A DNA stretch of 64,000 bases from an uncultured Eubacteriales bacterium. Its GTDB lineage: Bacteria > Bacillota > Clostridia > Christensenellales > Aristaeellaceae. The stretch spans positions 1-64,000 of the forward strand of contig CACYTF010000011.1 of NCBI GenBank assembly GCA_902777335.1. Reading direction: 5' to 3'. Position numbers and translations under genes: made by a program. The first letter of the stretch is position 1. Each line of letters begins with the position of its first letter. This document shows, piece after piece, positions 4,277 through 30,874 of the stretch. The notes under the pieces are model-generated. The model was not told where the DNA came from. It searched no databases and was given only the letters and a program-made list of their open reading frames with translations.

Positions 4277-4283
4277 TCGCCCG

Positions 4284-6672: not shown

Positions 6673-6704
6673 ACGCCCCAGCTCCTTTGTACAAACCTGG
6701 AGCC

Positions 6705-6733
6705 ATTATACCAGATCAGCGGACCTTTCTCAA
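6705..6733 (-). promoter_or_regulatory. Promoter of the LuxR membrane regulator
   Basis: On the minus strand, TTGAGA (6728-6733) and TATAAT (6705-6710) are 17 bases apart, with AAAGGAG and the start codon just downstream. Confidence 0.75.
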
Positions 6734-6807
6734 CGCAAAAGTCGCCAAATCGGGCCACCTACCCCAAAACTATCCTCCGTTTTTGCCAAATTCCCGGCCA
6801 AAAGCTC

Positions 6808-6837
6808 TTGTTTCATTTGTGTTAAACAGTGTATAAT
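6808..6837 (+). promoter_or_regulatory. Promoter of the secreted-paralogue operon
   Basis: TTGTTT (6808-6813) and TATAAT (6832-6837) are 18 bases apart and point to the gene at 6896. The region is divergent with the LuxR regulator promoter about 75 bases away, so the regulator may act here. Confidence 0.6.
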
Positions 6838-6895
6838 GGTTTAAACGGGAGCGGGGGCGGCCCCTCGCCCTGCCCTTTGAAAAGGAGGATACACC

Positions 6896-8488: not shown

Positions 8489-8506
8489 GAAAAGGAGGCC
8501 GACGCC

Positions 8507-9073
8507 ATGCGGAAACGGCTGATACTGACGCTGCTCATCGCGCTGGCGGTCTGCGCCGCCTCGGCGGAGCCCGTGGCGATGCGCATCGTGTCCTGCCCGG
8601 AGCAGAGCTTCTCCACGCTGTGCAAGCCCCAATACACCTACGACTTCCACCCGGACGGCGGCCTGACGATCTGCCTGGGCGAGGCGGAGGACCAGCCCTG
8701 CGTGACGATCTTCAAGACCGACGCGCCCGGAGCGGAGTTTGACGCCCGGTACTACCTGGACAACGTCTACGCCGGCCTGCTGAAGGACAGCTATGGCGAC
8801 GGGCTGGACAGCCTGAGCGATACCGCCGCCTACACCCTGGGCGGACGCGAAATGCCCGCCCGCATGGCGCTGTACCACACCGACGGCGGGGCGTACATGC
8901 GCTTCTGCGCCTTCGACCTGCGGGACGACTGCTTCGTGCGCTACGAGGCCTTCAGCCCGCAGGAGGACATCGCCATAGAGGACGCGCTGCAGGCGCTGAG
9001 CGACGCGGTGCGATACTTCCAGCCCGACGCCGGCCACTACGGCGACGCCGGCACACCCATGACAGACGATTGA
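8507..9073 (+). CDS. Secreted protein of unknown function, paralogue 2
   Basis: This 188-residue protein has a short signal peptide (residues 1-20, LILTLLIALAVCAASA) followed by one copy of the domain shared with its neighbours. The domain starts CPEQSFSTLCKPQYTYDF, continues QPCVTIFKTD and ends EDALQALSDAVRYF, so it represents the minimal unit of the family. AAGGAGG lies just before the ATG, and the gene starts 19 bases after paralogue 1, so the genes form one transcript. I cannot assign a function. Confidence 0.78.
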   Translation: MRKRLILTLLIALAVCAASAEPVAMRIVSCPEQSFSTLCKPQYTYDFHPDGGLTICLGEAEDQPCVTIFKTDAPGAEFDARYYLDNVYAGLLKDSYGDGLDSLSDTAAYTLGGREMPARMALYHTDGGAYMRFCAFDLRDDCFVRYEAFSPQEDIAIEDALQALSDAVRYFQPDAGHYGDAGTPMTDD

Positions 9074-9089
9074 CGGGAGGAAAAAAGCC

Positions 9090-10589: not shown

Positions 10590-10609
10590 GCCGCTCTTTC
10601 CCGCACCCG

Positions 10610-10647
10610 TTCCATCCGCCCCGATCCGGGCGGATGGAATTTCTTTG
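10610..10647 (+). terminator. Strong terminator after secreted-paralogue operon
   Basis: A perfect 12-pair stem, ttccatccgccc/gggcggatggaa with a six-base loop (10610-10639), is followed by tttcttt. Confidence 0.85.
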
Positions 10648-10660
10648 CCTTTGCAGGAAT

Positions 10661-10689
10661 TTGTGTTTCCCGCGTGGAAAATATATAGG
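10661..10689 (+). promoter_or_regulatory. Possible promoter of the glycosyltransferase fusion
   Basis: TTGTGT (10661-10666) and TATAGG (10684-10689) are 17 bases apart, directly after the terminator and 31 bases before the start codon. The -10 element is weak. Confidence 0.4.
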
Positions 10690-10720
10690 TTAAAGCCATG
10701 CATTCCAAGGAGAACCGACC

Positions 10721-14641
<3,921 letters not shown>

Positions 14642-14666
14642 CAAAACTCAGAGGAGGGTGTGTTCC

Positions 14667-16145
14667 ATGGCATTCAAGCTGACCGTCATCGGCGCCGGAA
14701 GCCTGACCTTCGCGCGCACGCTGTTCACCGACATCATGACCGTCCCGGAGCTGCGGGGCATGGAGGTGGCCTTCACCGACATCAACGCCGACAACCTGGA
14801 AAGGGTCACCCGGCTGTGCCAGCGGGACCTTATGGCCAACGGCATCGCCACAAGGATTCAGGCCACCACCGACCGCCGGGAGGCGCTGAAGGGCGCGCGC
14901 TACATCGTAAACTGCGTGCGCGTGGGCGGCCTCGAGGCCTTTGAATCGGACATCGACATCCCGCTGAAGTACGGCGTGGACCAGTGCGTGGGCGACACGC
15001 TGTGCATCGGCGGCATCATGTACGGCCAGCGGGGCATCGCCGCGGTGCTGGACTTCTGCCGCGACATCCGCGAGGTGGCGGAGCCCAACGCCCTGCTGCT
15101 GAACTACTCCAACCCGATGGCCATGCTGACCTGGGCCTGCATACAATACGGCGGCGTGCGCACGCTGGGCCTGTGCCACGGTGAGATCCACGGCGAGATG
15201 CAGATCGCCGAGGTGCTGGGCCTGAAGGACCGCAAGGCGCTGGACGTGATCTGCGCGGGCCTCAACCACCAGACCTGGTACCTGTCCGTCAAGCACAACG
15301 GCCAGGAGATGACCGGCCGCCTGCTGGAGGCCTTCGAGAAGCATCCGACCTACAGCCAGACCGAAAAGGTGCGCATCGACGTGCTGCGGCGCTTCGGCTA
15401 CTACTCCACCGAGTCCAACGGCCACCTGTCCGAATACGTGGCCTGGTATCGCAAGCGCCCGGACGAGATCGAGCGCTGGATCGACCTGTCCAGCTGGATC
15501 AACGGCGAGACCGGCGGCTACCTGCGGGAGACCCGTGAAAACCGCGACTGGTTCGAGACCGAGTACCCGAAGCTGATGCAGGAGCCGCCCAAGCGCTACG
15601 ACGGCAGCGCGCGCAGCAGCGAGCACGGCAGCTACATCATCGAGGCGCTGGAGACGGGCCGGACCTATCGCGGCCACTTCAACGTGATGAACCGGGGCAC
15701 TATATCGAACCTGCCGGACGACTGCGTGGTGGAGGTGCCCTGCTATGTGGACGGCAACGGCATCAGCGTCCCCCGCGTGGGCGATCTGCCGATGGGCTGC
15801 GCCGCCGTGTGCAGCCAGTCCGCGTGGGTGCAGCGCATGGCCGTGGAGGCCGCCGTGTCCGGCGACGCGGAGCTGCTCAAACAGGCGGCGCTGATGGACC
15901 CGCTGACCGGCGCGGTGTGCAACCCGCCGGAGGTGTGGCAGATGGTGGACGAGATGCTGATCGCCCAGGAGAAGTGGCTGCCCCAGTACAGCGAAGCCAT
16001 CGCCGCCGCGAAGGCGCGCTTCGCGAAGGGCGGCCTGATCCCCACCAGGGAGGGCTACCGGGGTGCGGTCCGCCAGCGGGTAAAGACCGCCGAAGAGGTC
16101 GCCGCCGAGCGCCGCGAGCGCGAGGAGCGGCACAAGCGGGAGTAA
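14667..16145 (+). CDS. Glycoside hydrolase family 4 (alpha-galactosidase/alpha-glucosidase type)
   Basis: GH4 enzymes hydrolyse glycosides by an NAD+- and Mn2+-dependent redox-elimination mechanism. This 492-residue cytoplasmic protein has the N-terminal Rossmann motif VIGAGSLTFARTL, the metal-binding Cys-His in LCHGEIHGE (about residue 170), NYSNPMAMLTW and the downstream CAGLNHQTW. It is closest in pattern to MelA-like members, but substrate and anomeric preference cannot be read from the sequence. ATG 14667 follows GAGGAGGG; a GTG at 14658 is less likely. It lies 25 bases after the glycosyltransferase fusion and may share its transcript. Confidence 0.9.
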   Translation: MAFKLTVIGAGSLTFARTLFTDIMTVPELRGMEVAFTDINADNLERVTRLCQRDLMANGIATRIQATTDRREALKGARYIVNCVRVGGLEAFESDIDIPLKYGVDQCVGDTLCIGGIMYGQRGIAAVLDFCRDIREVAEPNALLLNYSNPMAMLTWACIQYGGVRTLGLCHGEIHGEMQIAEVLGLKDRKALDVICAGLNHQTWYLSVKHNGQEMTGRLLEAFEKHPTYSQTEKVRIDVLRRFGYYSTESNGHLSEYVAWYRKRPDEIERWIDLSSWINGETGGYLRETRENRDWFETEYPKLMQEPPKRYDGSARSSEHGSYIIEALETGRTYRGHFNVMNRGTISNLPDDCVVEVPCYVDGNGISVPRVGDLPMGCAAVCSQSAWVQRMAVEAAVSGDAELLKQAALMDPLTGAVCNPPEVWQMVDEMLIAQEKWLPQYSEAIAAAKARFAKGGLIPTREGYRGAVRQRVKTAEEVAAERREREERHKRE

Positions 16146-16167
16146 GATTACACAGGAGGGCTTAGCC

Positions 16168-17697
16168 ATGCTCGCATTTGTACCCAGCTGCGGCCTCGCC
16201 GGCATCGACGGCTTCGCCGTGGACGTGGAGGTCAACCTGTCCAACGGCATGGTGCTGTTTGAAATCGTGGGGCTGCCGGACGCCGCGGTGAAGGAATCCC
16301 GCGAGCGGGTGCGCACCGCGCTGAGAAACAGCGGCTTCATACTGCCGGGAGAGCGCCTGATCGTCAACCTGGCCCCCGCCGACCAGAAGAAGGAGGGGCC
16401 CGCCTTCGACCTGCCCATCGCGCTGGGCATACTGTGCTGCATGGGCAGCATCAGCCAGGCGGCGCTGCAGAGCGTGTGCGTGTTCGGCGAGCTGTCGCTG
16501 AACGGCGCCGTGCGGCCCGTGCGCGGCGCGCTGCCCATGGTGATCTCCGCCATGGAGCGGGGCGTGCGGCGCTTTTTGATCCCCGCGGAAAACGCCGCGG
16601 AGGTCCGCTGCATCGAGGGGGCCGAGATCTACCCGGTGACCACGCTCATCGAGGCGGCGCGGCACCTGGCGATCAAAACCCTGATCGAGCCGCTGCAGCC
16701 GGTGGCCTACAAGACGCTGGTCAGCCGTCGGCAGTTCTCCGAGGACTTCTGCCACGTGAAGGGCCAGAGCAAGGCCAAGCGGGCGCTGGAAATCGCCGCG
16801 GCGGGCGGCCACAACATACTGATGATCGGCCCGCCGGGCAGTGGCAAGACGCTGATGGCCCGGTGCCTGCCCACGATACTGCCGGACATGACCTTCGAAG
16901 AGGCGCTGGAGGCCACCCGCATCCACTCGGTGGCCGGCATCGTGCCCCCCTCGGGCCTGCTCACCGAGCGGCCCTTCCGCTCGCCCCACCACACCGCCAG
17001 CCACGCCAGCCTCGTGGGCGGCGGGCCCAACGCCATGCCCGGCGAGATCTCCAAGGCCCACAACGGCGTGCTGTTCCTGGACGAGCTGCCCGAATACCAC
17101 CGCGACGTGCTGGAGGCGCTCCGGCAGCCCATGGAGGACGGCTTCGTCACCGTCACCCGGGTGAACGCCACGAGCACCTATCCCAGCCGCTTCGTGCTGG
17201 TGTGCAGCATGAACCCCTGCCCCTGCGGCAACCTGGGCAGCCGCACCAAGCAGTGCCGGTGCACGCCCAACGAGATCAGAAGGTATTTGAACCGCGTGTC
17301 CGGCCCGCTGCTGGACAGGATCGACATGCACATCGAGGTGGAGTCCATCTCCGCCGAGCGCCTGGCCGACGCGGAGCTTTCAGAGTCCAGCGACAGCATC
17401 CGCCAGCGCGTCGAGGCCGCCCGGGCGGTGCAGCGCGCGCGCTACGGCGACGCCGGCATCCGCTGCAACGCCGAGCTGAACGCGAGGACGCTTCCCAAGG
17501 TCTGCACGCTGACCGCCTCCGCCCGGGAGCTTCTGAGCGCCTCCACCGAGAAGCTGAAGCTGTCCAACCGCGCCTACGCCCGCGTGCTGAAGGTCGCGAG
17601 GACCATCTGCGACCTGGACGGCGTCGATGAAATCGGCGACGCGCAGGTCGCCGAGGCCGTTCAGTACCGGGCGCTGGACCGGAAGTATTGGGGATGA
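16168..17697 (+). CDS. YifB/ComM family Mg-chelatase-like AAA+ ATPase
   Basis: YifB (ComM) is a hexameric helicase-like AAA+ protein linked to branch migration during natural transformation. The 509 residues comprise an N-terminal Lon-protease-like fold (VEIVGLPDAAVKESRERV-type segment, about 30-50), Walker A GPPGSGKT (about 222-229), Walker B VLFLDELPEY (about 300) and a C-terminal Mg-chelatase lid (SNRAYARVLKVARTICDLDG). The last 169 bases are duplicated at 18550-18718, so this gene end has been a recombination site. In Firmicutes yifB lies next to dprA; here 12 kb separate them. AGGAGGG precedes the ATG. Confidence 0.95.
   Translation: MLAFVPSCGLAGIDGFAVDVEVNLSNGMVLFEIVGLPDAAVKESRERVRTALRNSGFILPGERLIVNLAPADQKKEGPAFDLPIALGILCCMGSISQAALQSVCVFGELSLNGAVRPVRGALPMVISAMERGVRRFLIPAENAAEVRCIEGAEIYPVTTLIEAARHLAIKTLIEPLQPVAYKTLVSRRQFSEDFCHVKGQSKAKRALEIAAAGGHNILMIGPPGSGKTLMARCLPTILPDMTFEEALEATRIHSVAGIVPPSGLLTERPFRSPHHTASHASLVGGGPNAMPGEISKAHNGVLFLDELPEYHRDVLEALRQPMEDGFVTVTRVNATSTYPSRFVLVCSMNPCPCGNLGSRTKQCRCTPNEIRRYLNRVSGPLLDRIDMHIEVESISAERLADAELSESSDSIRQRVEAARAVQRARYGDAGIRCNAELNARTLPKVCTLTASARELLSASTEKLKLSNRAYARVLKVARTICDLDGVDEIGDAQVAEAVQYRALDRKYWG
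17529..17697 (+). repeat. yifB 3'-end repeat, copy within the intact gene
   Basis: These bases, the last 55 codons of yifB and its stop, align without gaps to 18550-18718 (offset 1021). Differences are few and mostly at third codon positions. The pair brackets a 0.85-kb insert with three small genes. Confidence 0.9.
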
Positions 17698-17713
17698 CGG
17701 GAGGTGTATATCC

Positions 17714-17989
17714 ATGATCGCCTATCTCTCCAGCCAGGGCAAGTACACGTCCTTTACCGTTGGCGACAGGGTGCTGCGCTTTCGCACGTCCCACAACCTC
17801 GTGCGGTATGAGCGCGTCAAGGAATGGGACAACGGCTACATCGTCGTTGATGCAACCTATGACAAGGCGGGAACGGTTGAAGATTACATCGACCTCGTTC
17901 CGATTCTCGAAAACCTGCGTATTCCGCCGGAGGATTTCTTCGGCAATGTTCAGTCGGTGCAAATCAAATATGACCCCGTCCCGGCCTGA
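17714..17989 (+). CDS. Small protein of unknown function (cassette gene 1)
   Basis: The 91-residue product starts MIAYLSSQGKYTSFTVGD and contains RYERVKEWDNGYIVVDATY and EDYIDLVPILENLRI. It is soluble and acidic, with no signal peptide or membrane segment. I recognise no named function. It starts 16 bases after yifB with a GGGAGGTG site, and is the first of three closely spaced genes inside the yifB-bracketed insert. These resemble small toxin-antitoxin-like or phage-accessory genes in size and spacing; that is inference only. Confidence 0.7.
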   Translation: MIAYLSSQGKYTSFTVGDRVLRFRTSHNLVRYERVKEWDNGYIVVDATYDKAGTVEDYIDLVPILENLRIPPEDFFGNVQSVQIKYDPVPA

Positions 17990-18013
17990 CAGTCGAAAGG
18001 AAGTGTTCAGTCC

Positions 18014-18250
18014 ATGACCATGCAGGAAATCGCCGACGCCGCGTCCTTCATCATCGACGGCTATGCCATGGAGGTGCTCGACAGCGGTATGCGCATCACC
18101 AACCTTCACAGGCTCGATCATGTCGCCTTCCTCTCCCCCAAGGGAGAGGTTTTGGAAACCACCATGGACGATATCGAACTGCACATCGCCATGAAGCACT
18201 ATGAGAAGGCCCGGGCGTATATGGAGGATGACGATGCCGAAGTACTTTGA
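18014..18250 (+). CDS. Small protein of unknown function (cassette gene 2)
   Basis: The 78-residue acidic protein (IADAASFIIDGYAMEVLD, KGEVLETTMDDIELHIA, ending EDDDAEVL) has no motif I can name. It follows gene 1 by 24 bases, with a GAAAGGAAG site before the ATG, and its 3' end overlaps the start of the DUF4160-like gene. DUF4160 proteins are often paired with a small partner, so this could be the partner. It does not look like the usual DUF2442 partner. Confidence 0.68.
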   Translation: MTMQEIADAASFIIDGYAMEVLDSGMRITNLHRLDHVAFLSPKGEVLETTMDDIELHIAMKHYEKARAYMEDDDAEVL

Positions 18251-18515
18251 TTTCAAAATCAACGGGTACTACCTTTACTTCACAACGCATTGCGTGGTTG
18301 AAGCCATGCACGCCCATGCCAGCGACGGACGGCTCACCGAGGGCGGCTCCGCCAAGTTCTTTGTGAAGTCAAACGGGGATACCGTCGTTCAAAACAGGGG
18401 GAGTATCAGCGAGGCCGATATCCGCCGCCTGCAACGCTTTATCAAGGATAATTACGAACTCATGTATGCCAAGTGGCGCATATACAGTTCGGAAGGGTTC
18501 TACAGGGGCGAATAA
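18234..18515 (+). CDS. DUF4160-like small protein (cassette gene 3)
   Basis: The 93-residue product has features I associate with DUF4160: an N-terminal MPKYFDFKINGYYLYF, a central HAHASDGR then SAKFFVKSNGD, and the C-terminal helix FIKDNYELMYAKW. DUF4160 genes commonly sit in two- or three-gene cassettes with toxin-antitoxin-like organisation, but the biochemical role is unknown. ATG 18234 is six bases after GGAGG (18223-18227). It overlaps the preceding gene, so the two are coupled. Family assignment is from memory and moderately secure. Confidence 0.68.
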   Translation: MPKYFDFKINGYYLYFTTHCVVEAMHAHASDGRLTEGGSAKFFVKSNGDTVVQNRGSISEADIRRLQRFIKDNYELMYAKWRIYSSEGFYRGE

Positions 18516-18549
18516 CCCAATGAAAAAAAGAATTCCCCTCCACCGACGT

Positions 18550-18718
18550 GCTACTGAGTGTCTCCACCGAAAAGCTGAAGCTGTCCAACCGCGCCTACGC
18601 CCGGGTGCTGAAGGTCGCGAGGACCATCTGCGACCTGGACGGCGTCGATGAAATCGGCGACGCACAGGTGGCCGAGGCCGTTCAATACCGGGCGCTGGAC
18701 CGGAAGTATTGGGGATAA
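18550..18718 (+). pseudogene. Displaced 3' end of a second yifB
   Basis: This is a detached copy of the last 55 codons of yifB with its own stop (TAA instead of TGA). It keeps the reading frame (STEKLKLSNRAYARVLKVAR, then TICDLDG) but has no start or upstream gene body; weaker similarity extends left to about 18535. Clear differences from 17529-17697 (gag/gaa, cgc/cgg, gcg/gca, gtc/gtg, cag/caa) are synonymous; only gcc/gtc near the left edge changes an amino acid. Both copies therefore appear to have evolved in functional genes before being brought together, as expected for an element that replaces the 3' end of its target gene. Confidence 0.88.
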
Positions 18719-18724
18719 GCCTTG

Positions 18725-18771
18725 CAATGTAGTGACATTGTATTGACATTTGACTATCAAAGTGCTATGCT
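18725..18771 (+). promoter_or_regulatory. Promoter and operator-like palindrome of the toxin-antitoxin pair
   Basis: TTGACA (18743-18748) and TATGCT (18766-18771) are 17 bases apart. The inverted repeat CAATGTagtgACATTG (18725-18740) abuts the -35 element and would suit autoregulation by the antitoxin. Confidence 0.75.
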
Positions 18772-18790
18772 TGCCTTGGAGGTGAACGTC

Positions 18791-19111
18791 ATGTCCCAAC
18801 TGAACGTCGTCAACGCGCCAAAGACAGCCACATTTCAGATGCGCATCAATCCTGAAATCAAAAACGAGGCGGAGCGGGTCTTTTCCCGTTGCGGCCTGTC
18901 CTTCACCGACGCGGTCAATCTGTTTCTTCAACAGTCGATCAACGCCGGAGGGCTGCCTTTTCTCATTACCGGTGACAGCAAGGAAGCCCTGCGCAACCAG
19001 GCCATCACCATGCTGATGTCCGAAATCCAAAAGGGCAGGGATTCCGTGCGCACCGAGAGCGACTGGGTATCCGAAGAAGAAATGCTCTCCCACTTCGGGG
19101 TGACACCATGA
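18791..19111 (+). CDS. RelB/DinJ-family antitoxin
   Basis: The 106-residue protein has a ribbon-helix-helix N-terminus (ATFQMRINPEIKNEAERVF, then SRCGLSFTDAVNLFLQQSIN) typical of RelB/DinJ antitoxins, which bind DNA and neutralise a RelE/ParE-type toxin. The C-terminal part (SDWVSEEEMLSHFGV) is the usual toxin-wrapping acidic tail. ATG 18791 follows GGAGGTG. Its stop overlaps the toxin start by four bases (ATGA). The palindrome and promoter just upstream suggest conditional cooperativity-type autoregulation. Confidence 0.88.
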   Translation: MSQLNVVNAPKTATFQMRINPEIKNEAERVFSRCGLSFTDAVNLFLQQSINAGGLPFLITGDSKEALRNQAITMLMSEIQKGRDSVRTESDWVSEEEMLSHFGVTP

Positions 19112-19413
19112 AACTGCGCTACACCCCACAAGCCATTGTGGATCTACAGGAGATTGACGATTACATCAGCAATGTACTGTTGAATCCGGATGCAGCCAAG
19201 CGAATCATAACGTCCATCGCACAGGACGCTTCCCGTTTGAAGGAGAATCCCTTACTTGGCTTTGACCTCAGTAAGAAAACCGGACGGGAGATCAAAGGCA
19301 GGGGGCTGGTTTCAGGCAAATACCTGTTGATCTATGACATAGACGACTGTGTCTCCATCTTACGCGTACTGGATACGCGGGTCGATTACCTCAGAATGAT
19401 CGGTACTTGGTAA
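19108..19413 (+). CDS. RelE/ParE-family toxin
   Basis: A 101-residue toxin of the RelE/ParE superfamily. The start KLRYTPQAIVDLQEIDDYI is the typical first strand and helices, with LKENPLLGFDLSKKTGREIK in the middle and the terminal strands SGKYLLIYDIDDCVSILRVL, ending DTRVDYLRMI. RelE members cut ribosome-bound mRNA and ParE members poison gyrase; the sequence does not decide between them, though the DYI and RxxDY pattern leans to ParE. It is coupled to the antitoxin by an ATGA overlap. Confidence 0.87.
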   Translation: MKLRYTPQAIVDLQEIDDYISNVLLNPDAAKRIITSIAQDASRLKENPLLGFDLSKKTGREIKGRGLVSGKYLLIYDIDDCVSILRVLDTRVDYLRMIGTW

Positions 19414-19426
19414 TGCCGCGATGGTT

Positions 19427-19455
19427 TTTACTATGAAGAAGAGCACCTGTATAAT
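19427..19455 (+). promoter_or_regulatory. Promoter before the GmrSD remnant
   Basis: TTTACT (19427-19432) and TATAAT (19450-19455) are 17 bases apart. It may also read into the sigma-factor cassette, since no terminator follows before 19777. Confidence 0.6.
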
Positions 19456-19473
19456 GATATGGAGGTCTGCTAC

Positions 19474-19761
19474 ATGCCGATAACAATCGCTCCATCGTCA
19501 AACGACACCGAACTTCGTCAACTTATGAATGATGTTGATAGTGGCAAAATCCAACTTCCTGACTTTCAACGTGGCTGGACCTGGGATGATGACCGCATCC
19601 GTGGCATGCATCGAATCATGGAAGAGCGAACCTATGTCGCCATTAACTCGAACAGTTTCTTAATATCAGCCATCTGTTTTGAGCCAGATGGCAGGCATAT
19701 TCCATTCGATACCATCTTCAAGCTGAAGTACAACTGCGCGCAGAAACGGATAAATACATAA
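19474..19761 (+). pseudogene. Truncated GmrSD/DUF262 restriction-type gene
   Basis: The first 45 codons encode the conserved N-terminus of DUF262 (GmrSD-like modified-DNA restriction nucleases): LRQLMNDVDSGKIQLPDFQR followed by GWTWDDDRIRGM. The following 50 residues do not resemble the expected continuation (normally a segment like LLASISxGYPIG), and the gene ends after about 95 codons where intact members have 500 or more. It is a deletion remnant, either a degraded defence gene or a deletion scar left by island turnover. GGAGG lies eight bases before ATG 19474. It ends 15 bases before the sigma gene. Confidence 0.7.
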
Positions 19762-19776
19762 AGGAGTCGTGTTAGC

Positions 19777-20331
19777 ATGATTATATTTCCCCAGGTGATA
19801 CTGGACATGCCTGAAGGCAGTGATCGTGACTATATGGAATGGCTCTATAGGGAGTATTGCGCCCTGATGTTTTCAACCGCATGGAAATACTTCAAGGATA
19901 AAGCAGACGTGGAAGACATTGTATCCGACGGTTGCCTCTCTCTAATGCAGAATATCCCTACATTGCGTTTGCTCGAACGTAACAAATTAGGGGTTTACAT
20001 CGTCTCTACAATTAGAAACACTGCATTCAACCACTATGCCAAACAAAAAAGAACAAATGATCACACAACCGCTGCAAGCACTAAGGTGATTCAGTCGGTG
20101 GCTGACACAACCAATGTTGAAAGCAAAGTCGCCATGGAAGATGAATTGGCTTATGTCTGGAAAGCGATTGGACAACTTCCAGAAAAGGAACAGCAGATCT
20201 TGTACATGAAATACGCACTCGAACTACCGGATACCGTAATTGCAAAGCGTGTTGGATTGTCCATTAATAGTATACGCAAGTATATAAGCAGGGCGCGCGA
20301 TCACATAAAAGCTATGATTTATGCGGAATAA
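19777..20331 (+). CDS. ECF-type RNA polymerase sigma factor
   Basis: The 184-residue protein has region 2 (WLYREYCALMFSTAWKYF, then DKADVEDIVSDGCLSLM, about 25-70) and region 4 (QLPEKEQQILYMKYALELPD, then NSIRKYISRARDHIKAMI, about 130-180). It therefore redirects RNA polymerase to a dedicated promoter set. AAAGGAG precedes the ATG. Thirteen bases downstream lies a membrane protein of the DUF4367 type, the expected anti-sigma partner. Codon use is AT-richer than the backbone genes, as for the next five genes, suggesting recent acquisition. Confidence 0.92.
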   Translation: MIIFPQVILDMPEGSDRDYMEWLYREYCALMFSTAWKYFKDKADVEDIVSDGCLSLMQNIPTLRLLERNKLGVYIVSTIRNTAFNHYAKQKRTNDHTTAASTKVIQSVADTTNVESKVAMEDELAYVWKAIGQLPEKEQQILYMKYALELPDTVIAKRVGLSINSIRKYISRARDHIKAMIYAE

Positions 20332-20343
20332 AGGAGTCTATTT

Positions 20344-21099
20344 ATGCGGAAGAATAGATATAATTTCGATGCGTTGCAAGATCAGCATCTCGATGCAATG
20401 ATCCAATTGGCCTACAAACAAGCGGATGCGTTGGAATCCCAAAGAATCGCAGATGACTACTACGCTTCTCCTGCGCAGCCTTCTCCAGACGCCGCCGCAG
20501 CAGCCTTCGCGTCATTTGAGGACAAGTTGCGCCGACGCTCACGGCAAGACAGTAAAGCGGCGCGGCGGCGGCGACTGGGACATATGATCCCACGGATTGT
20601 CCAGGCGGCAGCCTGCATCGTCCTTGTCCTGGGAATATCTGCCCCAATCGCCATTGCAAATGTAGAATCCATCAGATTCAAAGTCATGGAACTGCTAATC
20701 AATATTCAAGAAGATCACGCAGAACTCGAAATGGTCGAAAACAACGACCTTGACCTCCATATTCCCGCTGAATGGGCAGGGAACTACTATCCGCTATATA
20801 TCCCAGATGATTTCACAGCTATTGATGTGGGCAGCCTTTTCGCTACGATAAATTTTGCCAGTAGTGACGGGCGCAATATACGCTTTACGGAGCTTGCCCC
20901 GGATGACCAGACGAATATCGACATTGAAGATGCGTACCTGTCCTACACCACAATCAACGGCGAAAACGCTTTCATCGTCGAGAAATGCGATTCCATAACC
21001 GTCGCATGGGGAGTGAATGATCGCTACTTTGTTCTCAACTCCAATACCACGAAAGAGGAAACACTTGAAATTGCCAAGAACGTACGGTGCATCAAATAA
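20344..21099 (+). CDS. DUF4367 membrane protein, probable anti-sigma factor
   Basis: The 251-residue protein has a cytoplasmic N-terminus (about 1-90) with a basic stretch (DKLRRRSRQDSKAARRRR), one membrane helix (about 93-110, AACIVLVLGISAPIAIA) and an extracellular C-terminal domain. That domain ends in a DUF4367-like pattern (NGENAFIVEKCDSITVAWG, then RYFVLNSNTTKEETLEIAKN). This layout, directly after an ECF sigma gene, fits a membrane anti-sigma factor that senses an external signal. The classical zinc anti-sigma His-Cys motif is not visible. The ribosome binding site is AAAGGAG. Confidence 0.8.
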   Translation: MRKNRYNFDALQDQHLDAMIQLAYKQADALESQRIADDYYASPAQPSPDAAAAAFASFEDKLRRRSRQDSKAARRRRLGHMIPRIVQAAACIVLVLGISAPIAIANVESIRFKVMELLINIQEDHAELEMVENNDLDLHIPAEWAGNYYPLYIPDDFTAIDVGSLFATINFASSDGRNIRFTELAPDDQTNIDIEDAYLSYTTINGENAFIVEKCDSITVAWGVNDRYFVLNSNTTKEETLEIAKNVRCIK

Positions 21100-21123
21100 T
21101 TTCAGACATTCTGTCACGCCTTA

Positions 21124-21166
21124 ACCTCCTGAATTGTCTTCTATTATGAACGATAAATCAGGAGGT
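21124..21166 (+). promoter_or_regulatory. Hairpin that could hide a ribosome binding site
   Basis: ACCTCCTGA (21124-21132) is perfectly complementary to TCAGGAGGT (21158-21166), the Shine-Dalgarno sequence of the next gene, with a 25-base loop between. If formed in mRNA it would block initiation at ATG 21173. Confidence 0.55.
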
Positions 21167-21186
21167 ATTTCAATGAAGAACCTTAG

Positions 21187-21582
21187 TTGGATGTGTCTTG
21201 TACTCCACACCTCAAGGTACTTAATGTCATGGATGAGAAGCGGCGCATAGCCTACATCCTAACCTGCGTTCAGAATGAATCCACCGATTTTATTCGCATG
21301 AAAATCCGTGAAAGGCAGCTCATGGCAAGACTGGCGCGAGATTTACAGAAGCCTGTACACATCGAAATCATCGACTCTATTTCTCTCCAAAGCGAGCTTG
21401 ACGACCTTCTATCCGTATGCACGGGACAGGAATACAATGTTTTGTGCGACAAACGTATTGGCCTGAGCGACGAGGAAATTGCAGCAAGAATGCAAGTATC
21501 CAAATCAACAGTTCGTATTTATTGGCATAGGGCCAGAAAGCGTATAAGGGACATGTTACTCCGTAGCGAGTTTGATGTATAG
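21187..21582 (+). CDS. Sigma-70-like regulator with apparent 5' frameshift
   Basis: The C-terminal half is a region-4-like helix-turn-helix (EYNVLCDKRIGLSDEEIAAR, then VSKSTVRIYWHRARKRIRDM). The N-terminal half (DEKRRIAYILTCVQNESTDF, RERQLMARLARDLQKP) is helical and resembles no complete region 2. The only good ribosome binding site (AGGAGGT, 21160-21166) serves ATG 21173, in a different frame that ends at 21250. Adding one base near 21186-21189 would join MKNLS to LDVSCTPHLKVLNV and give a 136-residue protein. I therefore suspect a one-base deletion or sequencing error there. Without it, starts could be TTG 21187 or ATG 21229, both with poor sites. Confidence 0.6.
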   Translation: MDVSCTPHLKVLNVMDEKRRIAYILTCVQNESTDFIRMKIRERQLMARLARDLQKPVHIEIIDSISLQSELDDLLSVCTGQEYNVLCDKRIGLSDEEIAARMQVSKSTVRIYWHRARKRIRDMLLRSEFDV

Positions 21583-21610
21583 AATGCCATAAAAGAAGGA
21601 GGTCCTATTG

Positions 21611-22768
21611 TTGGGTACGATCTATCTTACAAAATGTATGCTGCTGAAGTGTCTGAAAAGGAAGCGTGGATTGCCCATCGTTCTTTTTGGACTATTTATC
21701 GCAGCCCTTGGTATTCTGATCGTCGCTTCTGTGGCAAGAAACCGGGAATTGCAGTCTCCCTGGTATATGCAGAGATCCGCTACAGTCTTGTTTGAATACC
21801 CGGTATCGCCCAAGGAATTATACTCTTCCCTGCATGATGCATTTCGCGAAGGATCCGTCAACGGCTATGCGCTGATCGCAGACATCGATGTATCTGGAGG
21901 CATCTCTCTGGGGGGGCTGGAGGGCAACCTATGGAATCCTGTCGATAGCGAGGATGACCGTTTTTCTACCCGTGATAATATCTTCTGGATCCACCAGCAG
22001 GCGGTCCCCGAAGCGTATTTCTACGATTTGGATGACCTCAGGGCAACGATCAATGGCATAGAACTTGATTGTGCGGGCTTAACCTATTATGGATTGAATT
22101 GGGATTGGTCTCAAAATACACATTCAACTGATTCTATAGCCTTCACGCTCGATGGAAAGCGGCCTGTAATTGGGTATCCCGTATTTGAAAGCGTCAACAT
22201 AGGCGGGGATTGGATCTATATAGCGCCCGTACTTACTGGCTCAACCTGGATGGCTGAGAACGATATACCAATCATAGGCGCCTGTATAACACTTTCGCAG
22301 CCCAATGATTTAACCGTGCTCAAAGACATCGTTGACATGCTCAGTACACCATGCACGTTGACAACCGAATGGAATGCTGGGCGGATCGGCTCTTTGACTG
22401 CCAATGAGTGGGTCTATTTGGGGGCGCTTGTCCTGGCGCTGTTAAATGTTGCAGCCCTTTTCTACGGCTTGATAGATAGTTATAAGGAAGAACTGTTCAT
22501 CTTTCGGAAGATCGGCGCAACAAAGCGCTCCATCTGTATTGCGTCGTCAATACTCGTAATCCTCTTCTCCTGTCTTGCCAGCCTTCTCGCCCGAGGTGTA
22601 TTTGAAGTATTATTCCATTGCCAGGGCGATACCGTTTGGTTGGCTTCCCTCCCAGGTAGCTACAATTGCGCACTGTTCCTCGCCTTTATCGGGATATGCG
22701 CGTTGCTGTCCTTGAACCACCTGAGCGGTATATTGAAAAATTTCCGAAGAATCGGCACGAATTTGTGA
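21611..22768 (+). CDS. ABC transporter permease (FtsX-like), cassette subunit 1
   Basis: The roughly 385-residue membrane protein has one N-terminal helix (about 23-42, GLPIVLFGLFIAALGILIV), a long extracellular domain (about 45-265) and three C-terminal helices (about 270-290, 315-335 and 355-375). This is the FtsX/MacB permease topology, used to drive extracellular events or export rather than import. AGGAGGT (21597-21603) is seven bases before TTG 21611, four before TTG 21608, and no ATG is suitably placed. It is followed closely by a second permease and an ATPase. The large external domain has no motif I can assign. Confidence 0.8.
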   Translation: MGTIYLTKCMLLKCLKRKRGLPIVLFGLFIAALGILIVASVARNRELQSPWYMQRSATVLFEYPVSPKELYSSLHDAFREGSVNGYALIADIDVSGGISLGGLEGNLWNPVDSEDDRFSTRDNIFWIHQQAVPEAYFYDLDDLRATINGIELDCAGLTYYGLNWDWSQNTHSTDSIAFTLDGKRPVIGYPVFESVNIGGDWIYIAPVLTGSTWMAENDIPIIGACITLSQPNDLTVLKDIVDMLSTPCTLTTEWNAGRIGSLTANEWVYLGALVLALLNVAALFYGLIDSYKEELFIFRKIGATKRSICIASSILVILFSCLASLLARGVFEVLFHCQGDTVWLASLPGSYNCALFLAFIGICALLSLNHLSGILKNFRRIGTNL

Positions 22769-22778
22769 GGTGAACGGT

Positions 22779-23975
22779 ATGCGAAAAGCCTCGTATGTAT
22801 CCCGGGTCCTGTTATCCACATTTGGCACAAAACTGATCCTGCTTTGGCTCATTACCCTTCTGATCTCTTTCGGCTTATCCATGAGCATCGGGATCGCGCA
22901 CGACCAGTTTGTTACGCAGTCTTATTATCTCAATGACGATATGAGCGACCTGGCCTTTTTCGTTGACACCACAGCAGCGTACTATCCCGATGCCCAGGGG
23001 CGCGCAAATGCAATACGAAAATTGCAAGATATCCTCACATCCTGGCCTGGTATGCAAGCGGTCTATGCACAAACCACATTGGAGGATATCGATCAAGGAA
23101 TCGTCTGCTATGCGTACCCATCCGCCTTATTGCCCAGGCTGCATCTGCCAACTGCTCAGCATGGCATTGAGGTCGGGGTTGGCGGGGGCGAACGTGCAGT
23201 TTGGTTGGATAACCGTTTGGCCGGTCAATATCGCCCCGGCGATGAAATCTGCCTTGACCTTGATATGGGCGATGGGCACACCTCCCGGCAGACCTTCACG
23301 GTCGCAGGGTTCCTGAATGATGAGAATGTGCATTACGATTTTGATACCGGTTCTTCTGCGGAGACATTTTCAGCAGATTTTGTCGTCCGAAACCCTTCAA
23401 GCTACATATGCGTGACAGTCAGTGATCGTGTATTTTCCGATTCGGCATTTGACGGCTTGCGCTCCTCCGCGAAATTCCTCTTACCTGAGGACGGCGATTG
23501 CATTGCCGCATGGAAAGAACGTGCCCGCCAGCAAGGTGTCGGCACTGTCAGCAGCATGGCAGACATTTTGCAAAACGACCGGAAAAACACCAGTCTGATG
23601 ACCACCCCTGTGCTGATCCTGTGCATTATTATGATGGTACTTGCCCTCGTTGGACTGATTGGGACACAGATGCAACTCATGAACCAATATAAGCAGGTGG
23701 CCTTTTCACTGGTCATGAGCGGCATGCAATGGCGGACTTGGAAGACGGCTTGGCTGACGATATTTTGTATACCGCTTTTTATCGCAAGTGCGATCGGGGC
23801 ATCGCTTGGAAACGCTTGGGAATTGATCGTTATGTTGCAAGCGATCCGCTTTGTCTCACCCTTGACTGCCGCTGTCAGCATTGTAACCGTTCTGCTTTCC
23901 GTTCTGGGCATTCTTCCGAATATCAGCAGATGGAGCCGGATCGACATCAACGAATTTAGGAGGCTAAGTGAATGA
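22779..23975 (+). CDS. ABC transporter permease (FtsX-like), cassette subunit 2
   Basis: The 398-residue protein again has one N-terminal helix (about 19-38), a large extracytoplasmic domain (about 40-265) and three C-terminal helices (about 272-295, 325-345 and 355-378; for example ILCIIMMVLALVGLIGTQM). The end IDINEFRRLSE resembles other FtsX-like permeases. ATG 22779 is eight bases after GAGG; the gene starts 10 bases after the first permease and overlaps the ATPase start by four bases. The two permeases probably form a heterodimer. Confidence 0.82.
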   Translation: MRKASYVSRVLLSTFGTKLILLWLITLLISFGLSMSIGIAHDQFVTQSYYLNDDMSDLAFFVDTTAAYYPDAQGRANAIRKLQDILTSWPGMQAVYAQTTLEDIDQGIVCYAYPSALLPRLHLPTAQHGIEVGVGGGERAVWLDNRLAGQYRPGDEICLDLDMGDGHTSRQTFTVAGFLNDENVHYDFDTGSSAETFSADFVVRNPSSYICVTVSDRVFSDSAFDGLRSSAKFLLPEDGDCIAAWKERARQQGVGTVSSMADILQNDRKNTSLMTTPVLILCIIMMVLALVGLIGTQMQLMNQYKQVAFSLVMSGMQWRTWKTAWLTIFCIPLFIASAIGASLGNAWELIVMLQAIRFVSPLTAAVSIVTVLLSVLGILPNISRWSRIDINEFRRLSE

Positions 23976-24640
23976 ACAACATTAAACTGAGCGGAATCAC
24001 AAAGGTCTATGACCCCGGGAAACCATATGAAGTCGTAGCGCTCCAAGGAGTCGATGCGGAATTTGAATGCGGCCATTCCTATGCGGTCATGGGCGCCTCG
24101 GGCTCAGGAAAATCGACGCTGCTCAACATTTTGGGCGGACTTGACCGGCCTACCAAGGGAACGTATTCCTGGGGCTCTTTGAGAATGGATACCATGACTC
24201 CAAAGTTATTGACAAGAGTTCGGGCAAACAACATTGGTTTCATACTTCAGGATTACGGGTTGATCGACTATATTTCCGTCCTTGAGAACTGCCTTGCCCC
24301 CTGCATATTCGCTGGTAAAAAGAGAAGCCTTGCAAAGCGGGAAGCTGTAAATGTTTTGGAAATGTTGGGGATCATAGGTCTTGCCAACCGAGAGGTAAAA
24401 AAGCTCTCAGGCGGGCAAAAACAGCGGACAGCCATTGCCCGTGCCATCATCAATCGTCCGAACCTGATCCTTGCTGACGAACCGACCGGCGCACTGGACT
24501 CCAAGAACGCCGATATGATCTTGCAGGTTCTTCTTTCTTTGGTCAACGAACGGTCGATCGTAATCCTGGCAACACATGACGCTGCCGCCGCCCAGCGCTG
24601 TAATCATATTCTGCGCATAAAGGATGGAAAGATTATCTAA
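23972..24640 (+). CDS. ABC transporter ATPase (MacB/LolD-type)
   Basis: The 222-residue ATPase has Walker A GASGSGKST (about 46-54), the Q-loop FILQDYGLIDYISVLENC, signature LSGGQKQR (about 143-150), Walker B LILADEPTGALDS and the H-loop ATHD. It matches the MacB/LolD/BceA group that works with FtsX-like permeases. It starts inside the preceding stop (ATGA) and completes a two-permease, one-ATPase complex. The likely role is export of, or immunity to, a peptide, such as the small secreted protein encoded next. Confidence 0.93.
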   Translation: MNNIKLSGITKVYDPGKPYEVVALQGVDAEFECGHSYAVMGASGSGKSTLLNILGGLDRPTKGTYSWGSLRMDTMTPKLLTRVRANNIGFILQDYGLIDYISVLENCLAPCIFAGKKRSLAKREAVNVLEMLGIIGLANREVKKLSGGQKQRTAIARAIINRPNLILADEPTGALDSKNADMILQVLLSLVNERSIVILATHDAAAAQRCNHILRIKDGKII

Positions 24641-24669
24641 ACCTCTTAATTGGGTTCACTCTATGGTCA

Positions 24670-24720
24670 AAATGCTCGGCTACCCGTTTTGCCGTATCAA
24701 TAACTGGTATTTGAGCATTT
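24670..24720. repeat. Inverted repeat in the gap before the secreted protein gene
   Basis: AAATGCTC (24670-24677) and GAGCATTT (24713-24720) are perfect inverted repeats 35 bases apart, between the ATPase stop and the secreted-protein gene. They may form a weak processing or attenuation hairpin. Otherwise I see nothing in the 24641-24819 gap. Confidence 0.4.
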
Positions 24721-24835
24721 AGATAACACAGTAATACGGTGCTGTGAATAATCTTCGAAGGAGCGTGACACATAATCTGAAGGGACATACTTTCTCCGAC
24801 ACATCAAATTCAAATCCATGAAAGGAGTGCTTTCC

Positions 24836-25201
24836 ATGAAGAAGTTTACCTCTATGCTCTGTCTCACCCTGGTTCTTACCACGATTCTCGCAACGATTGC
24901 CTTTGCTACCTGTGATGGCAAAGGGCGCAGCTACAATGTCGATTGCTGGAAGACCTTCGGAATCTACCAGTACGCCAAAGCCACTCAGTCTGCAAGTTGT
25001 ACTGGTGGCCATAATGTAACATTAACGACGAAATTGACGCTGCACTACACCGATGGCTCAACCGGTTCCTCAAGTGGCGCTTCGTCTGTACAGAAGCAAG
25101 TTCCCGCAGGAAAAGTCGGCAGCAAGGCTTCTGGCACATTCAATGCTAAATGTAGCGCTGGCTACAGTTTCCCGAAGCGTAGCGCGACTGATAAGTGGTA
25201 A
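24836..25201 (+). CDS. Small secreted cysteine-containing protein
   Basis: The 121-residue precursor has a textbook signal peptide (about 1-23, FTSMLCLTLVLTTILATIAF ending in Ala). The mature part is about 97 residues, rich in Ser, Thr, Gly and Lys, with four cysteines (in TCDGKG, NVDCWK, SASCTGG and NAKCSAG) that could form two disulfides. It ends SFPKRSATDKW. I do not recognise the family. Size, secretion and position after an FtsX-type ABC transporter suggest a bacteriocin-like or signalling protein. AAAGGAG precedes ATG 24836. No processing double-Gly leader is present. Confidence 0.75.
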   Translation: MKKFTSMLCLTLVLTTILATIAFATCDGKGRSYNVDCWKTFGIYQYAKATQSASCTGGHNVTLTTKLTLHYTDGSTGSSSGASSVQKQVPAGKVGSKASGTFNAKCSAGYSFPKRSATDKW

Positions 25202-25432
25202 GATATAGTAGGCCCTTACTTTGGGTGTTTCTCGACTACACGATTGTGGATCTATCCCATAATCTGTGTAAGCAAGATCATGCACTGCAAAACGATATAG
25301 AGTTAAAAAGCGAGCGGGCAGCGGATTTATCCGATGTCCGCTTGTGTGCATCATAGCATACCGGACGAGTAGAGTCAAGGGACGTCGCGTCGCAACGCAA
25401 TGCCCAAGCCGATACAAAACGATAATTGCCTC
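25202..25432. other. Intergenic region without a supported gene
   Basis: Apart from an imperfect hairpin around 25312-25342 (AGCGG...CCGCT enclosing CGGAT/ATCCG), which on the minus strand is followed by a short T run, I see no gene, RNA or repeat here. It marks the return from the AT-richer cassette to backbone composition. Confidence 0.5.
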
Positions 25433-25461
25433 TTTACAATTGCGGCGTTTTCGTGTACAAT
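25433..25461 (+). promoter_or_regulatory. Promoter of the 2HCT transporter gene
   Basis: TTTACA (25433-25438) and TACAAT (25456-25461) are 17 bases apart, 63 bases before the start codon. Confidence 0.7.
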
Positions 25462-25524
25462 GGTTTTGAGCACTCAAAGGTATGCTTATACCAACAATCG
25501 ACGAGGCAAGAAAGGAAGGTTCTC

Positions 25525-27009
25525 ATGGCGAACAAGTCGAACTCAGGAAAACAGCTGACGCTGTTCAACCTGCCGTGGCCGATCTTCTTGATCATCACGG
25601 CCGTCGTGCTGATCGCTACCTATCTGGGCGTGCTGCCCGCGGGCATGGCCGGATGCTTTGCGTTCATGATCGTGCTGGGCACCATACTCGGCTGGATCGG
25701 CGACCACACCCCCATCATCAAGGACTTCCTCGGCGGCGGGGCCATCGTGTGCATCTTCGGCTCGGCGCTGCTGGTGTACTTCAACATACTGCCGAAGAAG
25801 ATCGGCGTGGATGAGGAGACCGGCAAGGCCATCTACAACATGTTCCTTCCGTTTGCCAACGCCAAGGGCGCTTCCGACCTGGTGGGCAACATCGGCACCT
25901 TCTTCAAGACCGAGGGCGGCTTCCTGGATTGGTACATCGCCGCGCTGATCACCGGCTCCATACTGGGCATGAACCGCAAGCTGCTGATGAAGGCGGCGGC
26001 CCGCTACTTCCCCGCCATCTTCGGCGGCCTGATTCTGGCCTTCGCGCTGTGCTGCGGCGTGGCCGCCATCATGGGCTACCCGGTGATAAACGCGCTGCTT
26101 CTGATCGCCCTGCCCATCATGGGCGGCGGCATGGGCGCCGGCGCCACCCCGCTTTCCAAGATCTTTGAGACCAGCAGCAGCATGAGCGCCGCCGAGGCCC
26201 TGTCGGTCATGACCCCCGCCGTGGCCATCGGCAACGCCGTGTCCATCGTGCTGGCCGGCATACTGGTGAAGGTCATCAGCGGCAAGCTGAACGGCAAGGG
26301 CCAGCTGATGCATTCCGGCTCCATCGACCCGAAGGAGCTTGAGATCAGCCCCGAGATGCAGGCCAAGCGCGACAATCTGTCCTTGGCGAACCTGGGCATC
26401 GGCCTTCTGACCTCCGGCGCGTTCTTCGCCTGGGGCTTCATACTCGCCGGCGTGTGGAAGGCGCTGGTTCCCAGCATCACGATCCACGCCTACGCCTGGA
26501 TGATCATCACCGTCGCCATCTGCAAGATCGCCAACATCATGCCCGAGCGCATCGAGATCGCCTGCTATCAGTGGTTCCAGTTCATCATGAAGAACCTGAC
26601 GAACATGCTGCTGGTGGGCATCGGCATTTGCTATCTGGACATCGGCACGGTCATCTCCTCCTTCAGCATCACCTATTTGCTGCTGTGCGCGGCCACCTGC
26701 ATCGGCGCGTTCGTCGGCGCGGCCGTCGTCGGCAAGTTCGTGGGCTTCTATCCCTTTGAGTCCGGCATCACCGCGGGCCTGTGCATGTCCAACATGGGCG
26801 GCACCGGCGACGTGGCCGTGCTGTCCGCCGCCGACCGCATGGAGCTTATGCCCTTCGCACAGATCTCCTCCCGCCTGGGCGGCGCGATCATACTGCTGAT
26901 CGCGAGCCTGATGCTCTCGGTGCTGGCGCAGTTCATCGTCACGTCCAACCCCGAGGCCGCGCAGGCCGCGCTGAGGACCGTCGTGGACGCCGCCAAAGCG
27001 CTGGGATAA
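25525..27009 (+). CDS. 2-hydroxycarboxylate transporter family (CitS-like)
   Basis: This 494-residue polytopic protein belongs to the 2HCT family of sodium- or proton-coupled carriers for citrate, malate or lactate. The two re-entrant loop motifs are clear: PIMGGGMGAGATPLSKIF (about 195-212) and MGGTGDVAVLSAADRMELM (about 422-440). About eleven hydrophobic helices surround them. ATG 25525 follows AAAGGAAGG. No citrate lyase or malolactic genes are nearby, so the substrate is open. It stands alone between a promoter and a terminator. Confidence 0.92.
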   Translation: MANKSNSGKQLTLFNLPWPIFLIITAVVLIATYLGVLPAGMAGCFAFMIVLGTILGWIGDHTPIIKDFLGGGAIVCIFGSALLVYFNILPKKIGVDEETGKAIYNMFLPFANAKGASDLVGNIGTFFKTEGGFLDWYIAALITGSILGMNRKLLMKAAARYFPAIFGGLILAFALCCGVAAIMGYPVINALLLIALPIMGGGMGAGATPLSKIFETSSSMSAAEALSVMTPAVAIGNAVSIVLAGILVKVISGKLNGKGQLMHSGSIDPKELEISPEMQAKRDNLSLANLGIGLLTSGAFFAWGFILAGVWKALVPSITIHAYAWMIITVAICKIANIMPERIEIACYQWFQFIMKNLTNMLLVGIGICYLDIGTVISSFSITYLLLCAATCIGAFVGAAVVGKFVGFYPFESGITAGLCMSNMGGTGDVAVLSAADRMELMPFAQISSRLGGAIILLIASLMLSVLAQFIVTSNPEAAQAALRTVVDAAKALG

Positions 27010-30793: not shown

Positions 30794-30827
30794 TCGGAAG
30801 GAGAACGTCGAACCGGAACGGGCGTCC

Positions 30828-30860
30828 CCCTGTTCCCTGTTCCCCGTTCCCTGTTCCCTT
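30828..30860. repeat. Short heptamer array before topA
   Basis: Four to five units of CCCTGTT (one variant CCCCGTT) lie between dprA and the topA ribosome binding site. The unit is identical to that of the 28-unit array at 43742-43945. Confidence 0.8.
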
Positions 30861-30874
30861 TTTCGGAGGAAATT

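Follow-up and report, generated by a model that had tools for sequence, protein, structure and literature searches.

The window described here is a stretch of 64,000 nucleotides (nt) from an uncultured Eubacteriales bacterium of the Aristaeellaceae (Clostridia; GenBank assembly GCA_902777335.1, contig CACYTF010000011.1, positions 1 to 64,000, forward strand). Computational analysis of positions 19777-24640 points, with moderate confidence, to a horizontally acquired operon for an ATP-binding cassette (ABC) transporter, controlled by an extracytoplasmic function (ECF) sigma factor and carrying its promoter within a hairpin that masks a Shine-Dalgarno sequence (SD). A wider claim is put forward tentatively, namely that the ECF-sigma/DUF4367 operons of Clostridia are secretion modules of a class not yet described, many of whose loci have the sigma promoter in an anti-SD hairpin, and that a secreted protein would there be translated only from the messenger RNA (mRNA) of that promoter. 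The window would be a derived member of this class, with the gated gene lost and a MacB/Lol-like transporter behind the promoter. An initial annotation had described 19777-25201 as a block of seven same-strand genes, AT-richer than its flanks. The seven open reading frames (ORFs) are borne out by their coordinates and by Pfam searches, and the base composition likewise, with a G+C content of 0.481 in the block vs 0.674 at 1-17000 and 0.643 at 27001-64000. Five of the ORFs, those for the sigma factor, the DUF4367 protein, permease 1, permease 2 and the ATPase, are intact in the window. The features of the operon are as follows.

19777-20331, forward strand: ECF sigma factor, 184 residues (PF04542, 48.1 bits; PF08281, 44.2 bits)
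20344-21099, forward strand: DUF4367 membrane protein, 251 residues, presumed anti-sigma factor (PF14285, 51.6 bits; cut-off 22.1), one transmembrane helix (TM) near residue 78
21112-21140, forward strand: ECF-type promoter, -35 TGTCAC at 21112-21117, 17-nt spacer, -10 TGTCTT at 21135-21140 (position weight matrix (PWM) score 16.7)
21124-21166, forward strand: hairpin predicted by RNA folding, 5' arm 21124-21138, 3' arm 21152-21166, SD AGGAGG at 21160-21165
21173-21250, forward strand: ORF of 25 codons behind the masked SD, presumably the remnant of a lost gene, starting where related loci start the secreted gene
21187-21582, forward strand: second sigma factor, probably degenerate, truncated to its C-terminal part (region 4; PF08281, 34.1 bits)
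21608-22768, forward strand: permease 1, start TTG 21608 or 21611, four TMs (18, 265, 301 and 344, counted from 21611) and a large external domain
22770-23975, forward strand: permease 2, four TMs (10, 272, 324 and 351) and a large external domain
23972-24640, forward strand: ABC ATPase of the MacB/LolD/BceA branch (PF00005, 102.2 bits)

A predicted promoter within an anti-SD hairpin

The DNA behind the DUF4367 gene was compared in 30 loci, many of which carry a two-box sequence and a hairpin that has the SD of the next gene as its 3' arm. ECF promoters have an AAC-type -35 and a CGT-type -10, and the two-box sequence resembles them. A PWM was fitted on these 30 regions only, among them the window and L014, a locus of Candidatus Pullichristensenella avicola, which belongs to a second genus. 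The promoter at 21112-21140 outscores every other site of the window, both strands counted (the window being part of the training set), and ties with L014, also a training region, at the top training score of 16.7; L175, a region from the wider phylum sample, reaches 16.7 too. The motif also held in 13 held-out regions (combined p 1.8e-7, with single p values floored at 0.001); the protein lists of ten of these had been inspected beforehand and all 13 had been viewed before scoring. Only L132, L147 and L153 of 11 small family loci are among the 13, the rest being without a recognised DUF4367 or enough DNA behind it, and L060 was omitted because its contig ends behind the gene. From the phylum, 17 of 30 loci were held out as well, those in which a profile recognised the DUF4367 gene. 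The 17-nt spacing gave the highest mean PWM score in both the training regions and the 13 held-out ones. Scores of at least 8 were found in 11 of the 30 held-out regions (5/13 and 6/17, two of the six being near-identical) vs 15 of 458 control gene starts taken from the fetched loci.

In the window, the anti-SD lies within the promoter spacer, the 5' arm extends into the -10, and the next ATG is at 21173. Assuming an offset of about seven bases after the -10, transcription is expected to start near 21147, inside the hairpin loop. The long transcript has a predicted folding energy of -22.5 kcal/mol in the window (z -5.64) and -28.1 kcal/mol in L014 (z -6.62), and the window stem was equalled by none of 200 shuffles. 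The outermost pair is altered on both sides between the two loci, from A-U to G-C. The full element, defined as a motif of at least 8, an SD stem that beats 95% of shuffles and an anti-SD inside the promoter spacer, was present in 8/30 training regions, in 5/30 held-out regions (4/13 and 1/17) and in 1/458 controls (held-out vs control p 3.6e-6). By this measure the element is recurrent without being universal. As the definition favours, none of the 13 strict loci, the window and L014 being two of them, has a 5' arm that reaches the expected start, and the SD has a mean predicted unpaired probability of 0.06 in the long vs 0.42 in the short transcript. For the long transcript of L014 this value is about 0. 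An Rfam search gave no match at E 1 in 17000-27000 of the window and none at gathering scores in 11 loci.

The inverted repeat overlaps the spacer and the -10, which would also suit a DNA operator, bound by a dimeric repressor, overlapping the promoter. Such an operator in place of an RNA hairpin is improbable. Outside the SD, the 13 strict stems contain 111 Watson-Crick, 16 G-U and 10 mismatched positions, and arm sequences differ between loci, with mainly the SD and its complement recurring (a point limited by the search design, which places the SD in one arm). An RNA hairpin is favoured because the stems hold the 16 G-U pairs and vary in sequence from locus to locus.

The consensus TGTMAC-N17-YGTYTT has two matches in the 3.64-Mb genome of the window, one at this promoter and one inside a 1009-residue ORF read on the opposite strand. 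This makes the consensus local to the cassette, where it would drive the genes behind it, first the gene remnants and after them permease 1, permease 2 and the ATPase. In the window the element probably serves mainly as a promoter of the transporter.

Proposed mechanism

In the mechanism proposed, the DUF4367 protein would retain the sigma factor at the membrane, and an envelope signal would set it free. Free sigma factor would then start transcription near 21147 from the promoter directly after the DUF4367 gene, and this internal promoter would induce the two permeases and the ATPase, forming a MacB/Lol-like transporter. On read-through mRNA from the sigma and DUF4367 genes, the 5' arm would pair with the SD of the next gene and mask it. 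mRNA begun at the internal promoter would lack the 5' arm and leave the SD more open, because transcription is expected to begin downstream of that arm. At related loci, release of the sigma factor would likewise allow the gated gene, often one for a small secreted protein, to be translated. In the window, only the 25-codon remnant appears to be left of the gated gene, the second sigma gene that follows has been truncated, and the promoter would remain for the transporter.

If this is true, leaky production of the gated secreted protein would be harmful or costly, and such tight control would suggest secreted products that harm the cell when mistimed, which would make the function of these proteins directly testable. 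A promoter in a hairpin, if real, would constitute a two-layer gate of the kind documented for phage T4. For T4 gene e, PMC3014915 describes long transcripts in which the ribosome site is hidden, and open transcripts from late promoters located in the region of the 5' arm. The likeness to gene e lies in a promoter set within the stretch that encodes the 5' arm, with promoter-proximal transcripts open, a state only predicted here. The two differ in that a phage late promoter is used in T4 and an ECF-type promoter here, and the genes are unrelated.

The sigma factor and the DUF4367 protein

The sigma factor has regions 2 and 4 above cut-off and is without other sigma-70 domains. The DUF4367 protein fits the layout of a membrane partner, since it adjoins the sigma factor and has a single TM and an extracytoplasmic domain. 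That it holds the sigma factor at the membrane is suggested by the family pattern of a sigma gene directly before DUF4367, and the two are likely a sigma/anti-sigma pair. An autoregulated promoter is common, though not universal, for ECF sigma genes. Two-box enumeration upstream of 39 sigma genes gave a best motif in 7/39 vs shuffle maxima of 5-7, and a shared autoregulation motif was rejected; judged from these 39 upstream regions, no sigma autoregulation is seen.

Conservation and origin of the operon

L014 aligns with the window at 83-87% nucleotide identity over 19685-21191 and 21518-24633 and retains the sigma factor, DUF4367 protein, permease 1, permease 2 and ATPase together. The sigma factors are 87% identical. 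The ratio of nonsynonymous to synonymous substitution rates (dN/dS) between the two loci is 0.094 for the sigma factor, 0.168 for the DUF4367 protein, 0.18 and 0.22 for two pieces of permease 1, 0.197 for permease 2 and 0.132 for the ATPase. With ratios of 0.09-0.22, the five genes have therefore been under selection as proteins. Within the set first proposed, the part formed by these five genes is upheld by its occurrence in a second genus. A neighbourhood comparison had been suggested in the initial annotation, and in this one close relative the sigma pair does stay with the transporter while the secreted protein that was listed with them is absent.

A close match to the ATPase (E <= 1e-50) exists in 1/28 genomes of the genus, that of the window itself, and permease 2 has matches in 3/297 genomes of the order, again with the window included. 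The block is taken to be acquired DNA because its G+C content differs from that of the flanks and the ATPase match is confined to one of the 28 genus genomes.

The two-permease transporter

The ATPase had been called MacB-type, and its closest solved structures, BceA, MJ0796 and MacB with LolD close behind, place it in the MacB/LolD/BceA branch as claimed. By hydropathy, the large external domain of both permeases lies between one TM at the N-terminus and three at the C-terminus, which is the layout of MacB/LolC-type permeases. The earlier description of FtsX-like permeases with large external domains fits in topology and external domains; the FtsX label itself is weak, with permease 1 at 15.1 bits for FtsX (PF02687), under the cut-off of 25.5, and permease 2 without a Pfam match at E 1. 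Profiles of both permeases gave no credible match in PDB. The relatives of permease 2 are those in L014 (85% identity), G003 (3.1e-43), G543 (4.0e-15) and G070 (6.2e-5). Anti-phage models match the ATPase only, which is taken as generic ATPase similarity. The most likely role of the transporter is to move or sense a compound active on the envelope.

The truncated second sigma factor and the 25-codon reading frame

The helix-turn-helix ORF at 21187-21582 had been counted as a gene of its own. It is incomplete, and is best read as the truncated remains of a second sigma gene of the type found at L162. The intact homologue, L162:5836-6330, encodes a 164-residue sigma factor with regions 2 and 4, of which residues 44-160 match window 21193-21555 by tblastn (9e-17); nothing in the window stretch matched residues 1-43. 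In L014 the second sigma gene has decayed to fragments. The order at L162 is sigma factor, DUF4367, secreted protein, second sigma factor. In the window, the ATG at 21173, which has a good ribosome site, opens a frame other than that of the helix-turn-helix ORF and is stopped at 21250. Second sigma-like genes follow DUF4367 at six of 40 sites, window included (a seventh listed, L163b, was left out as the next sigma/DUF4367 pair), and among the five outside the window only that of L162 is clearly the same gene.

Sigma/DUF4367 cassettes in Clostridia

DUF4367 is present in 13/121 sampled genomes of the order, 36/120 of the family and 74/249 of the phylum, each count including the genome of the window. 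The surroundings of DUF4367 were read at 40 sites, comprising 20 from the order sample (four in the genome of the window) and, as whole neighbourhoods, 20 of 54 family sites. An ECF sigma gene lies directly upstream of DUF4367 at 39/40 sites, and at the last one DUF4367 is preceded by another DUF4367 in tandem. At 18/40 sites the gene directly downstream encodes a small secreted protein from a single diverse family, and ten of these 18 had themselves built the profile of that family. The family is called DUF6147-like from one weak match (E 0.074), and its profile finds 66/248 genomes, many of them matching only at the signal-peptide end. When the search was started from the secreted family alone, a sigma-like gene was present within about 2 kb in 10/14 stretches, two of the ten being copies in one genome and some falling short of the strict DUF4367 profile. 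DUF4367, common in the phylum, is thereby tied to ECF sigma factors and often to small secreted proteins, and the promoter consensus lets regulons be predicted.

A same-strand ABC ATPase lies within 6.5 kb of DUF4367 at 7/40 sites, window included. Cassettes with a sigma factor, DUF4367, secreted protein or proteins, permease or permeases and ATPase occur at L053, L105, L106 and L109 in other families of the order and at L160 and L170 in the family of the window; some sigma/DUF4367/transporter cassettes also carry DUF6034 proteins. The ATPases and permeases of these six loci are of a type unlike that of the window, and the secreted proteins are others. The initial view of a kind of system with sigma factor, DUF4367, secreted protein and transporter therefore holds, with the secreted protein of the window unsupported as a member. 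These cassettes resemble the window in their sigma/DUF4367 head and, at part of the loci, in the promoter-hairpin; they differ, where complete, in permease/ATPase type and secreted proteins. We know of no name for the sigma/DUF4367/DUF6147-like cassettes.

Related loci showed further secreted proteins. In the genome of the window, a sigma/DUF4367 pair on contig 5 (L022:5154-8882) is followed by a 759-residue secreted protein without a convincing Pfam match, and this locus has an SD-masking hairpin and a weak promoter score. Two more pairs in the same genome precede a DUF6147-like secreted protein (L023:7340-7762 and L024:6243-6671). A second, very diverse small secreted protein stands beside the DUF6147-like one at L106:7327-7722, L157:8895-9308, L160:3587-3982 and L170:5931-6296.

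Evidence against an ECF-controlled, hairpin-gated operon

Several observations weigh against the reading of 19777-24640 as an acquired ECF-controlled operon with a promoter in an SD-masking hairpin. An ECF-type motif of at least 8 precedes sigma genes in just 3/39 cases, and that of the window scores 5.2 at 17-nt spacing. The full element is missing from 25/30 held-out and 22/30 training regions. The SD of the window has a predicted unpaired probability of 0.00 in the long transcript and only 0.27 in the short one, and the stem of L167 leaves the SD exposed in both (0.63 long, 0.56 short). In the window the hairpin gates no more than a 25-codon remnant, and as a translational switch it may thus be vestigial there; permease 1 has its own SD. 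The stretches read around the permease 2 relatives of G070, G003 and G543 show no neighbouring ECF sigma/DUF4367 genes; near the relative of G070 there is only a sporulation-type sigma gene (named by reading) on the opposite strand. The structural models of the permeases were unusable, that of permease 2, built from two sequences, reaching a mean predicted local distance difference test score (pLDDT) of 36.4. The number of synonymous substitutions per site (dS) between the window and L014 is 0.67-0.72 for the sigma and DUF4367 genes vs 0.38-0.42 for the permease and ATPase genes, and because of this difference the sigma/DUF4367 half and the transporter half may have partly separate histories.

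Permease 1 of L014 carries a frameshift, either real or an assembly error, which counts against the operon and would also fit a block that is left over from a mobile element, decaying and now without function. The truncated second sigma gene, the lost first gene behind the promoter and the GmrSD and DinB fragments upstream (DinB named by reading) agree with such decay. Five intact ORFs in the window and dN/dS of 0.09-0.22 between two lineages argue the other way, and a functionless remnant is unlikely.

The downstream secreted protein

The last gene of the block as first described encodes a secreted protein.

24836-25201, forward strand: orphan secreted protein, 121 residues, four cysteines in the mature part; best start ATG 24836, no Pfam match at E 1

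All four cysteines follow the signal peptide. The gene could belong to a complete peptide system, in which the transporter would export this protein or give immunity to it and the sigma pair would control both, and its position on the same strand, 195 bp behind the ATPase gene, with a G+C content of 0.469 vs 0.481 for the block, is in keeping with that. Secreted proteins and an ABC transporter do stand behind sigma/DUF4367 at the six loci L053, L105, L106, L109, L160 and L170, and a small secreted ORF adjoins the related permeases of G070. Against this, the gene is absent from L014, where the shared stretch stops at the ATPase stop codon, and no convincing relative was found in Pfam, NCBIfam, PDB sequences, plasmids, phages, viral contigs or 297 genomes of the order. 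The last search listed ten genomes, one of them that of the window and the other nine matching weakly (E 8.6e-4 to 0.009), and NCBIfam gave one unrelated match (E 0.03). No ECF-type promoter precedes the gene, the best score being 5.9 vs 16.7 after DUF4367. Alignment to the DUF6147-like family by hhalign covers just ten residues of the signal peptide, with no match beyond. The signal-peptide-like N-terminus moreover suggests export by the Sec pathway, for which an ABC pump would be unneeded. A complete peptide system of this kind is therefore unlikely, and 24836-25201 is better regarded as a separate or newly added gene, its membership of the cassette, as initially proposed, being unsupported on the absence from L014, the lack of a convincing relative in these collections and the lack of an ECF-type promoter upstream. 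Nor did anything found point specifically to the antimicrobial system that had been suggested.

L003 was rejected as a relative of the secreted protein: the whole sequence matches at E 4.6e-5 and the mature part alone at E 5.6, which leaves the match to the signal peptide. The comparison took in 442 ORFs with signal peptides from the fetched loci (duplicates counted); L003 was the best other match and the rest were weaker. A single-sequence model of the secreted protein is all-beta with low confidence (pLDDT 50.6) and was set aside for fold searching.

Comparison with known systems

Lactococcin-972-like and BceAB-like systems had been named as sharing parts of the set. The best NCBIfam model for the ATPase is indeed TIGR03608, of the lactococcin-972-type exporter, but the score of 186.8 bits is under the cut-off of 254.85, and neither a precursor nor an associated membrane protein of that system was recognised in the block by Pfam or NCBIfam. 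The comparison with BceAB does not hold, since the block has two 4-TM permeases instead of a 10-TM permease, and no two-component system (kinase or regulator) was present among the ORFs and Pfam matches of 19777-25201. MacB, LolCDE and BceAB share with the window the ATPase branch and permeases in which an external domain is combined with one plus three TMs; the window differs in its two separate, highly divergent permeases, below family cut-offs.

The sigY-yxlCDEFG operon of Bacillus subtilis holds an ECF sigma factor, membrane negative regulators and an ABC transporter. The window resembles it in combining a sigma factor, a membrane regulator and an ABC transporter in one operon and differs in the regulators and the transporter type. 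To our knowledge, no promoter-in-hairpin element is known for sigY-yxlCDEFG. SigY has been linked to SP-beta maintenance in PMC8270828. The parts of the window operon are known in kind, as an ECF/anti-sigma pair, a MacB/Lol-like transporter and the logic of T4 gene e. Their combination with a promoter in an anti-SD hairpin was not found in open-licence print. In the same literature a full-text search for DUF4367 and DUF6147 gave no paper, and none with the promoter-in-hairpin layout was found, the latter being weak evidence of novelty.

Neighbouring genes and repeats

Upstream of the sigma gene, an ORF at 19459-19761 fuses an N-terminal fragment of GmrSD to a short DinB-like start. The DinB start (named by reading) is a short piece common to the window and L014, which retains a longer DinB-like piece with a weak IMS match (E 0.079). 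A pair of a RelB-like antitoxin and a ParE-like toxin adjoins the cassette at 18722-19413. Before it, the 3' end of comM (named by reading) is duplicated at 17516-17695 and 18537-18716 with 92.8% identity, and genes for DUF7724, DUF7723 and DUF4160 proteins sit between the two copies. In the sister genome G302 (L073), comM is directly followed by a match to the RelB/ParE pair. In G315 (L072:2058-8917), comM is split by about 6.9 kb of inserted DNA that encodes a Fic/TatD-DNase protein, with a few bases repeated at the junction, and in G305 and G312 comM is in two pieces on different contigs. Thus, comM may be an insertion hotspot in the genus of the window. Elsewhere in the window, short-period repeats are common to 43742-43943 and 30826-30862, and a tandem repeat of about 57 bases lies at 51845-51959.

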